Assembly (NCBI GenBank): GCA_951828515.1 | Contig: OX639992.1 | Location: 124,001-188,000 of the forward strand | From: an uncultured Poribacteria bacterium | GTDB lineage: Bacteria > Poribacteria > WGA-4E > WGA-3G | Length of the DNA: 64,000 nt | Direction of reading: 5' to 3' | The notes under the pieces: model-generated | What the model was told of the DNA's origin: nothing | What the model saw: the letters and a program-made list of their open reading frames with translations, nothing else | Database searches by the model: none | Position numbers and translations under genes: made by a program | In this document: piece after piece, positions 26,247-33,500 of the stretch | Layout: each line of letters opens with the position of its first letter | Numbering within the stretch: position 1 is the stretch's first letter

Positions 26247-26278
26247 TAGTTTCCTTATACTTTGCGCTGTCTTTTTAT

Positions 26279-26713
26279 CAAACTTCGGTGTCAAAACCCC
26301 CTTGCTTTAGCTGGGGGATATAGACACCGCCCTCTTGGAAAGGACCAAAACGTTCATTTTTTTCTTGGCGTTTCGTCCGAAATTATGGTATAATACTCTT
26401 AGAGTGTAAGGTTGCTATAGAGGGTTGTTACGCACCTCTAAGGTTAGATTCCTATAGTGTAAAGCTCTAATGTCTAAGATCCTAAAAGTCGTAGCTTACA
26501 GTCGTTAGTAGGGAAAGACGGGTCATGCTGAATCCCTTTTGAAATATACGACTCAAAACTTTTCGTAAGGACCCTTCGGTGTCGCAGTCAGGATAGTGTC
26601 TGTTGCAGGAGGCTACAGAAGTCTTGCATATTGTAAGCAGTGGTCGTTGATCGCACAAAACTTCTGAGGACTTTCTTCAGAAGCACCCATGCTTTAGCAG
26701 GGTGTTCTATCAC
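26279..26713 (+). mobile_element. TnpB-less mini-element with IS200/IS605-type hairpin ends
   Basis: About 435 bp, non-coding. Left end: TTAT (26275-26278), 7 nt, then a two-part stem. The outer stem is CGGTGTC (26286-26292) with GACACCG (26323-26329), and the inner stem is CCCCC/GGGGG around GC-TTTA-GC. Right end: AGAAG, then CACCC-AT-GC-TTTA-GC-A-GGGTG (26684-26704), then 9 nt ending TATCAC (26713). The full TnpB element at 32011-33500 has the same layout, loops and spacings with different stem bases. Between the ends are a sigma70-like promoter and ~290 nt without a convincing gene. Orientation is plus by comparison. Confidence 0.7.
26365..26394 (+). promoter_or_regulatory. Promoter inside the mini-IS605-like element
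   Basis: TTGGCG (26365-26370), 18 nt, TATAAT (26389-26394). The tnpB promoter at 32107 also has an 18-nt spacer. Transcription would run through ~290 non-coding nt to the right-end hairpin. Confidence 0.5.
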
Positions 26714-26800
26714 TTTACTCAGTCCTCCCATGATTTTATCGGGTCCCTGAGTACGAACATCAAGCTTTATTGAGCGTTGGTTCGCGAGTTTTGCTTTAAA

Positions 26801-31992: not shown

Positions 31993-32106
31993 AACCTCGG
32001 TGTATCTTACCGAAAACCGGGCAGAAAGCCTAATCCTTTAGGTTTAGGATGAATGCCCGCCCTTGTGAATTAGGCTAAACTGTTGTTTTAAAAAAGCATT
32101 TTTTCC

Positions 32107-32204
32107 TTGACAAAAACACATAAAAAATGCTATAATGATAATATCACGTTGGCAGACATTCACAGCGTCACCGCTTGGTGGCGTGTCTGCCTACCCACTG
32201 TGAA
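32107..32204 (+). promoter_or_regulatory. tnpB promoter and structured 5' leader
   Basis: TTGACA (32107-32112), 18 nt, TATAAT (32131-32136) is a strong sigma70 site. In the leader, GGCAGACA (32151-32158) can pair with TGTCTGCC (32184-32191), while TTCACAG (32159-32165) can pair with CTGTGAA (32198-32204). The two stems interlock (pseudoknot or alternatives), which could control tnpB expression. Confidence 0.6.
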
Positions 32205-32233
32205 GGGGTTAAAGGCGTGATACGTGAAAGTCC

Positions 32234-33343
32234 ATGAAAACAGAAAAATACGAGTTCTACCATCAATCTAACTTGATACAGATCGGCAATTTGATTGACG
32301 ATCTGCATGGTGTGCATGTTCACCTTTTGATGTTGCAGAGACGCTATTATCGTATCTATGGTAAATATGCGTCCTTTGCCCGCATCTGCAATCATATCAC
32401 GAAGTTGAAACAGCGGACGAAACCGCATTGGAATCAACTGCCGAGTCAGGTCATCCAACAAGTCGCAAAGCGTATTCACTTGGGATACGAAAAGTTCTTT
32501 GACAACATTAGAGACCGAAAAGCAGGTAAAACGAAACGTAAAGTGGGTAGACCGAAAATCAAGCCAAATCATAAATATAACTCACTGACGTTCACACAAG
32601 CAGGTTTCAAATTAGAAGGCAATCGGTTGACAATTAACTGTATTAAAAAGTCGTTCACGTTTTGGGAGCACCGAGACTGGACAGGCACGATAAAGACGAT
32701 AACAATCAAACGTGATAATGTAGGTGACTACTATCTATACCTGAGTTGTGAGGATTACGAACCTTCCGAGGAACTCCCTTTGACCGGTAATGTGGCAGGG
32801 GCGGACTTCGGAATGAAAACATTTCTCACACTTTCAGACGGGACGAAAATAGATTCGCCAGAATTCTATAAACAAGGTCTCAACGCAATCCGTTCAGCAA
32901 ACAAGGCACTCTCCCGCAAGCAAAAGGGTTCAAATGCATGGTATCGTGCAAAGTGGCATCTCGCCTGTGTTCATAAGCAAATCACCCATAGGAGACGCGA
33001 TTGGTTCTTCAAATTGGCACTTCGGCTTGTACGTAAATATGATACACTTGCGATAGAGACCTTGAACCTTGAAGGGATGAAACGCCTCTGGGGACGCAAA
33101 ATCTCTGATATTGCCTTCGGTGAGTTTGCTTTGATCCTCCAATGGACTTTTTCGAAACATGGTAAAACACTCTTGAAAGCGGGACGTTGGGCAGCGACGA
33201 CAAAACCGTGTTCGGCTTGTGGACATCCCAATGAAAATCTAACACTCCAAGATAGGCAGTGGATATGCCCTGACTGTGGTTCACACCACGATAGGGACCT
33301 CAACGCTGCTATCAACATTTTGCAGGCTGGGGTACCCGCGTAA
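32234..33343 (+). CDS. tnpB: TnpB RNA-guided nuclease
   Basis: A 369-aa IS605-type TnpB, the transposon-encoded ancestor of Cas12, which cuts DNA at a TAM guided by a right-end RNA. All catalytic features look intact: RuvC-I Asp in GADFGMKTFL (~193), Glu in AIETLNLEGM (~274), a zinc ribbon with two CxxC pairs (PCSACG ~325 and CPDCG ~345) and the final Asp in DRDLNAA (~354). The N-terminus is the helical wedge region. No IS200 TnpA is nearby. Base composition and the own promoter fit a recently active element. Confidence 0.95.
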   Translation: MKTEKYEFYHQSNLIQIGNLIDDLHGVHVHLLMLQRRYYRIYGKYASFARICNHITKLKQRTKPHWNQLPSQVIQQVAKRIHLGYEKFFDNIRDRKAGKTKRKVGRPKIKPNHKYNSLTFTQAGFKLEGNRLTINCIKKSFTFWEHRDWTGTIKTITIKRDNVGDYYLYLSCEDYEPSEELPLTGNVAGADFGMKTFLTLSDGTKIDSPEFYKQGLNAIRSANKALSRKQKGSNAWYRAKWHLACVHKQITHRRRDWFFKLALRLVRKYDTLAIETLNLEGMKRLWGRKISDIAFGEFALILQWTFSKHGKTLLKAGRWAATTKPCSACGHPNENLTLQDRQWICPDCGSHHDRDLNAAINILQAGVPA

Positions 33344-33500
33344 CAATGCGCGATAAAGCCGTTGGATCACAACTTCGTGAGTGTGGCGGAGACGGAATAA
33401 TAGCCTGCGGGTGGAGCGACAGTCAGACGGTGGATTCTCTGAGAAAACCGCAGTTGCTACGAAACCGAAGCCCACGCCTTTAGGCGTTGGGTAGTATCAC
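33344..33500 (+). ncRNA. Putative omega-RNA (reRNA) scaffold of the TnpB element
   Basis: Between the tnpB stop and the right end, GC-rich sequence with several pairing segments ends in the CCCACGCC-TTTA-GGCGTTGGG hairpin. In this family the TnpB guide RNA comes from the tnpB 3' end through the right end, with the guide taken from flanking DNA just beyond (here from ~33501, the toxin leader). The 5' border is unknown. Confidence 0.55.

Follow-up and report, generated by a model that had tools for sequence, protein, structure and literature searches.

A tnpB-less mini-element of Candidatus Poribacteria is probably a guide-RNA-only IS200/IS605 transposon

The 64,000-nucleotide stretch of DNA analysed here (the window) is part of the single 5.85-Mb contig of a Candidatus Poribacteria genome (G000). 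At positions 26279-26713 it carries a 435-bp mini-element with the ends of an IS200/IS605 insertion sequence (IS), inside which neither a TnpA nor a TnpB open reading frame (ORF) was found. This raises the question of what the element encodes and how it is moved and kept. An earlier note on this DNA had proposed that it is either a non-autonomous passenger, mobilised by a TnpA acting in trans, or a guide-RNA-like transcript that stands alone. The two proposals both fit and their combination is the best explanation, the guide RNA being the better supported of the two; what had to be changed is the closest relative, which is not the neighbouring IS, and the description of the body, which consists of a TnpB omega-RNA and a leader module. 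We propose, with a probability of roughly 83%, that the mini-element is a guide-RNA-only, doubly non-autonomous IS200/IS605 transposon, moved by TnpA and assisted by a TnpB that cuts the empty sites in trans.

The boundaries of the mini-element could be set exactly, because two full copies in G000 (99% identical) agree from 26279 to 26713 and differ in their flanks, and because empty sites join precisely there. For the empty-site search, the flanks of the window copy were joined and compared with 38 genomes of the genus. The uninterrupted site was present in more than 20 congener species (89-93% identity in the closest), and its junction reads ...CTTTTTAT/NTNNCTCAGNCCTCC..., i.e., TTTTTAT followed by the flank, with nothing duplicated or lost. 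The element was inserted scarlessly 3' of TTAT, which is the insertion signature of IS200/IS605, and this TTAT is expected to serve also as the transposon-associated motif (TAM) of the empty site. The earlier note had suggested looking for empty sites without target duplication and had considered that the region might be ancestral; the sites found rule out both chance and an ancestral region, as the comparative alignment is that of an insertion. Moreover, since two 99% identical copies occupy different sites, the mini subfamily has been mobile recently. Besides the two full copies, G000 holds six interior copies with diverged left ends (78-93%), giving eight in all, and matches occur in about 21 of 37 congeners together with dozens of relatives at 70-92% identity. 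Covariance searches recovered many further copies, the lack of which would have spoken against the element. Plasmids and phages gave no match.

Two further observations were made among the copies. One locus in G000 (L029, C1:1740255, minus strand) is a terminal-only copy in which the left and right ends are fused to about 50 bp at the inner hairpin; it resembles the core-deleted palindrome-associated transposable elements (PATEs) of Haloquadratum. In addition, a short insert resembling GTTTTTGCTTGGGTGTTTTCCCC was seen in differing stems (stem 1 or the left-end hairpin) of the minis L043/L127, L047/L131 and L093, and perhaps represents a very small unit that is mobile or arose by slippage.

The end architecture described in the earlier note was present in every detail, including the 7-nt spacers. 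The left end of the mini-element reads TTAT, 7 nt, CGGTGTC, AAAA, CCCCCTTGC-TTTA-GCTGGGGG, GACACCG, and that of the IS at 32011 reads TTAC (32007-32010), 7 nt, CGGGCA, GAAAG, CCTAATCC-TTTA-GGTTTAGG, TGCCCG. The right ends of both consist of GAAG, a TTTA-loop hairpin and exactly 9 nt to TATCAC (TTCTATCAC and TAGTATCAC, respectively). The outer and inner left-end stems vary in sequence among copies and retain their pairing, in agreement with the compensatory changes noted earlier. In IS608-type elements, the hairpin at either end is accompanied by a tetranucleotide that pairs with the cleavage site. The guide tetranucleotide AAAA (26293-26296) of the mini-element matches TTAT in the same way as AAAG matches TTAC in the IS, and the pairs co-vary by class on both sides (left AAAA-TTAT versus AAAG-TTAC; right GAAG-TCAC versus GAAT-TCAA). 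Such joint change of guide and cleavage tetranucleotides is as expected for functional ends.

The interior of about 290 nt had been described as non-coding sequence; it is not filler but a conserved structured RNA. In an alignment of the last 154 nt of 26 copies (A1), 35 base pairs were found, 18 of them changed on both sides, with 96.9% of cells paired; the covariation score was reached in 0 of 500 shuffles and by none of the slid versions. The end architecture is not a product of chance, because eight copies exist in G000, about 21 of 37 congeners contain matches and this covariation is not reproduced by shuffling. One hairpin alternates between ACAC..GUGU and UGC..GCA, unrelated sequences with the pairing intact, and a terminal hairpin with a UUUA-type loop ends the RNA at the right end. 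A covariance model (CM R1) built from tnpB-less copies only matched the 3' ends of tnpB over its full length in G000 (L023, E 9e-10; L021/L022, about 3e-8; L110/L115, about 5e-7) and, in relatives, the tnpB-linked RNAs L128 (E 2e-23), L136 and L139. Compared by eye, the sequences of mini L162 and tnpB element L128 hardly differ in stem 1, the pseudoknot loop and the right end. Sequence comparison demonstrates that the transcribable strand of the mini-element holds a structured RNA under selection, the 3' half of which is a TnpB omega-RNA that stops precisely at the right end. No Rfam 15 family matched the mini RNA or its relatives at gathering score. An IscB/HEARO omega-RNA was ruled out, as RF02033 scored 12.3 bits in the mini region against a cut-off of 83, on the opposite strand and with an E-value of 4.1; no Rfam match to a group I or group II intron (self-splicing intron or IStron) was obtained up to E 10 between 26230 and 26760. 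In the mini subfamily L126, L130, L138, L147-L152 and L164, the stem-3 loop of the omega-RNA contains a conserved TTTTTGACATTCTCAAA segment.

The last bases of the element provide a further link to the RNAs of TnpB. Bases -7 to -3 pair with the stem-1 loop in minis and tnpB elements alike, and the versions of this pseudoknot covary (GAUAG/GGUAG-CUAUC, GACAU/GGCAU-AUGUC, GGCGU-ACGUC and GGUAC-GUAUC, the last being that of the window IS family). All five pairs were formed in 47 of 56 distinct sequences, with compensatory changes in three classes, whereas shuffling of partners gave a mean of 21.9 and a maximum of 33 in 5000 trials and the slid control gave 0. The scoring was done on aligned columns; a scan that requires an unbroken stem misses the RE1-type minis. 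These data bear on the alternative that the mini RNA is a decoy or inhibitor, which would occupy TnpB and shield the host or the mini from cutting rather than guide it. Part of the tnpB mRNA does inhibit cutting by TnpB in vitro (PMC10278001), and the extra leader of the minis could block activity; since the pseudoknot and the right end beside the flank-derived guide are intact, as productive omega-RNAs need, a decoy is improbable.

The nearest tnpB elements (L021/L022; 3486080-3487545 and 5784497-5785962 in G000) show 92-93% identity to the mini-element over its first 116 nt, through the -10 box, and 82% over the last 60 nt, and in all G000 tnpB elements that partially match the mini, the common sequence is limited to these two segments, the identity stopping at the final base of the -10 box. 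The promoter TTGGCG-18-TATAAT reported in the earlier note is present and is also common to genuine tnpB elements. Between promoter and omega-RNA lies a structured leader of about 165 nt that is composed of a 5' domain and a central domain. The 5' domain has 12 pairs (95.7% paired; covariation reached in 0 of 500 shuffles); its loop is constant and both stems change compensatorily between two classes. Promoter and leader are retained across wide divergence.

The leader was found only in tnpB-less elements and their relics. At 22 leader loci checked, tnpB was downstream in none, and most ended in an omega-RNA and right end. The leader model matched 24 of the genomes searched, all of this genus, with no match in three sister genera. 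A pattern scan of 84,980 species returned Poribacteria plus two non-poribacterial matches at chance level (about 4 expected by our estimate), and no viral contig carried the pattern. In a third class of minis, the leader precedes an omega-RNA that is nearly the same as the one of another TnpB family (L105), so that the leader has been combined with the omega-RNAs of three or more TnpB families. Type II leaders reach only E of about 0.2 with the leader model (CM R2), their kinship to types I and III being drawn from common motifs and not from a significant match. The leader/central module is a conserved mark of guide-only elements and perhaps replaces the tnpB mRNA as a stable or easily processed precursor of the omega-RNA. 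A common GGUUG-stem layout hinted at homology with the leader of tnpB mRNA, which is unsupported, as CM R2 matches no tnpB leader. The 5' untranslated leaders of many of these tnpB genes (L021:1110-1215 and 15 others, e.g., L022, L026, L031, L033, L107, L165 and L301) form a long hairpin and a pseudoknot of 7 bp (e.g., UGUAAAG...CUUUACA). The strands of the pseudoknot vary in sequence from element to element and are fully paired in 14 of 16, against a mean of 1.6 after shuffling. The L021 leader had no Rfam match, and this fold is a candidate cis-regulatory RNA of tnpB.

The leader also helps to judge whether the interior is functional at all. The mini-element could be an inert deletion derivative of the PATE type, of which TnpA moves the ends while the interior RNA is the functionless remains of a tnpB element. 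PATEs that lack their cores and have ends resembling those of IS605 have been described (PMC3119063), the terminal-only copy L029 exists and some mini copies are decayed. However, the leader and central domain are not found in tnpB elements, so the interior is not a simple tnpB deletion, and its pairing is under selection at 15-30% divergence, with the promoter retained and the pseudoknot following the end type; we consider an inert derivative unlikely, if slightly less so than a decoy. A constraint on the folding of single-stranded DNA during transposition instead of RNA is still harder to sustain: terminal hairpins and guide tetranucleotides are indeed DNA-level features of IS608-type elements, whereas the leader, the central domain and stems 1-3 follow a promoter and are situated 40-300 nt inward of the ends, tnpB elements that share these ends have no such leader, and the omega-RNA match is specific. 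This makes DNA folding very improbable as the source of the conservation.

Five species have a leader relic without ends, 96-100% identical, immediately in front of a DUF368-like gene (L230, L235 and L239; G005:C1:2248699, G006:C74:47040, G010:C11, G014:C873 and G029:C281), the DUF368 label coming from reading the translation and not from a family search. This copy has lost the omega-RNA and the right end. It is a relic, and an origin of the leader as a host cis-regulatory RNA of this gene is ruled out, because the leader is present at this place in only 5 of 38 genomes, although the gene region itself is matched in nearly all; it is possibly a fixed promoter donation. Together with the constitutive-looking promoter, this fixed relic could be taken to indicate that the minis are host-domesticated regulatory guide RNAs comparable to the RNA-guided repressor TldR. 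The window site is, however, empty in the closest congeners, the predicted guide of each copy is just the flank of that copy, and precisely the DUF368 copy is devoid of omega-RNA and right end, so that domestication is the least credible of the alternatives considered.

For the guide-RNA-only transposon proposed here, a source of TnpB is at hand. G000 contains intact tnpB genes of the matching end class, e.g., at 3486293-3487501 with an open frame of 405 aa, which has the Pfam domains OrfB_IS605 and Cas12f1-like_TNB and is homologous over about 350 aa to the TnpB of ISDra2. Congeners carry elements with an IS605-type TnpA whose left end (TTATCAAATCTTCCGCTAC-AAAACCC...) has the layout of the mini. 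Several points weigh against our proposal. An IS605-type TnpA was not found in G000, only RAYT/REP-like Y1 proteins, and movement there therefore needs a TnpA that has since been lost or is supplied otherwise. The pseudoknot is broken in some copies (L131, L148 and L160), and the mini omega-RNA differs from that of L021 in stems 2-3, so that its acceptance by a TnpB is only presumed. Transcription of the mini and binding of its RNA by TnpB are likewise predicted by analogy. As an observation apart, on G000 as a whole (L009-L014), minis moved recently within a genome of one contig in which no IS605-type TnpA could be detected.

Nety et al. reported that TnpB trims its own mRNA on the 5' side (PMC10278001), and Karvelis et al. 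proposed that TnpB cuts the rejoined site and that repair restores the element (PMC8612924). By analogy, the left-end promoter of the mini would produce an RNA of about 320 nt extending into the right flank; a TnpB from other elements in the cell would bind this RNA and trim its 5' end, and the first ~16 nt of the right flank would become the guide. After excision of the element as a single strand by a TnpA in trans, the rejoined site (TTAT plus flank) would match the guide and be cut by TnpB, and repair from the sister copy would restore the element. The mini thus probably borrows the TnpB of other elements to stay in the genome. More tentatively, and with somewhat less than even odds, guide-only elements may form a distinct lineage that parasitises a selfish system, its dedicated leader having been joined repeatedly to omega-RNAs of different TnpB families so as to let a tnpB-less element out-compete autonomous elements for their TnpB or hijack it in trans, in the manner of a satellite-like RNA-guided homing transposon.

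The earlier note had also implied kinship with the tnpB element 5.3 kb away in the window. This does not hold: that IS belongs to another subfamily, and an origin of the mini from it is ruled out by the existence of closer tnpB elements. The nearness of the two is coincidental. The coordinates of all features are collected in Table 1.

Table 1. Positions in the window of the mini-element's parts, its flanking sites and the neighbouring tnpB element.
Feature	Positions	Strand	Basis or remark
TTAT target tetranucleotide, 5' of element	26275..26278	+	retained in empty sites of closest congeners
Left end: 7 nt, outer stem, AAAA, inner hairpin with TTTA loop	26279..26329	+	sequence; 92-93% identity to left ends of tnpB elements L021/L022
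Sigma-70-like promoter: TTGGCG (26365-26370), 18 nt, TATAAT (26389-26394)	26365..26394	+	common to tnpB elements; retained in mini copies read
Leader 5' domain: stem A, internal loop UGUAAGGUU/GUGUAAAG, stem B	26398..26472	+	CM R2 match, 83.3 bits
Central domain: outer stem AGTCGT/ACGACT, inner stem GGGA/TCCC	26500..26553	+	alignment A2; 8/12 pairs with changes on both sides
Scaffold of the TnpB omega-RNA (stems, hairpin with TTTA loop, pseudoknot); overlaps right end	26560..26713	+	CM R1; 35 pairs, 18 double-changed
Pseudoknot 5' strand GAUAG, stem-1 loop	26592..26596	+	partner CUAUC, 26707-26711
Right end: GAAG, TTTA-loop hairpin, 9 nt ending TATCAC	26680..26713	+	sequence; includes pseudoknot 3' strand
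Predicted guide: first 16 nt of right flank, outside element	26714..26729	+	position by analogy with ISDra2 reRNA (PMC8612924); matches empty site 3' of TTAT
IS1341-type tnpB element without tnpA, separate subfamily; pseudoknot GGUAC/GUAUC	32011..33500	+	TnpB ORF 32234-33343; Pfam OrfB_IS605, Cas12f1-like_TNB

TnpB, an RNA-guided DNA cutter, is the ancestor of CRISPR-Cas12, and any account of how CRISPR arrays could have arisen centres on the step from an omega-RNA encoded in cis to a guide RNA whose locus is separate from that of the nuclease. The minis are natural, repeated, guide-RNA-only mobile loci; they have a promoter of their own as well as a conserved leader and, within a single genus, are associated with three or more TnpB families. 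They make retention by TnpB in trans, through cutting of empty sites, testable. They also offer guide RNAs that nature has already separated and placed under a promoter, and a new RNA leader to probe. No description of promoter-driven, tnpB-less omega-RNA elements with a dedicated leader was found in the literature searched, which missed key subscription papers.

Among known systems, the HEARO/IscB omega-RNA is likewise a guide RNA of an RNA-guided nuclease from mobile elements, and some copies are reported to have no protein gene next to them; its guide lies on the 5' side and its effector is IscB. The Rfam HEARO family, as stated above, does not match the mini. The reRNA of ISDra2 consists of the 3' end of tnpB, the right end and about 16 nt of flank (Karvelis et al., PMC8612924), and in its cryo-electron microscopy structure the bases at -5 to -3 ahead of the guide pair with bases around -104 in the loop of stem 1, preceded by a hairpin with a UUUA tetraloop (PMC10097598). 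The mini shares with it the stem-1-loop pseudoknot, the UUUA hairpin at the right end, a scaffold reaching to the transposon end and a guide position in the flank (PMC10097598; PMC8612924), but differs in having no tnpB and in carrying its own promoter and a structured leader before the scaffold. The haloarchaeal TnpB omega-RNAs of the Rfam sotRNA families RF02656 and RF02657 resemble it as RNAs that overlap the 3' end of tnpB in sense (PMC12558985), whereas the mini RNA and its relatives fall into no Rfam 15 family. Finally, PATEs are similar as transposase-free, multi-copy elements with IS605-like subterminal palindromes and no target duplication (PMC3119063); they were defined there by ends and size with no assigned RNA, unlike the mini with its selected omega-RNA and leader. 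The mini-element agrees with non-autonomous IS200/IS605 elements in its mode of insertion and its ends, mobilisation by a Y1 TnpA being presumed, with TnpB omega-RNAs in homology, pseudoknot and terminal hairpin, and with PATEs in the features just named. By analogy, with TnpB binding and cleavage as predicted properties, it would work like a TnpB omega-RNA that is supplied in trans by a PATE-like element.
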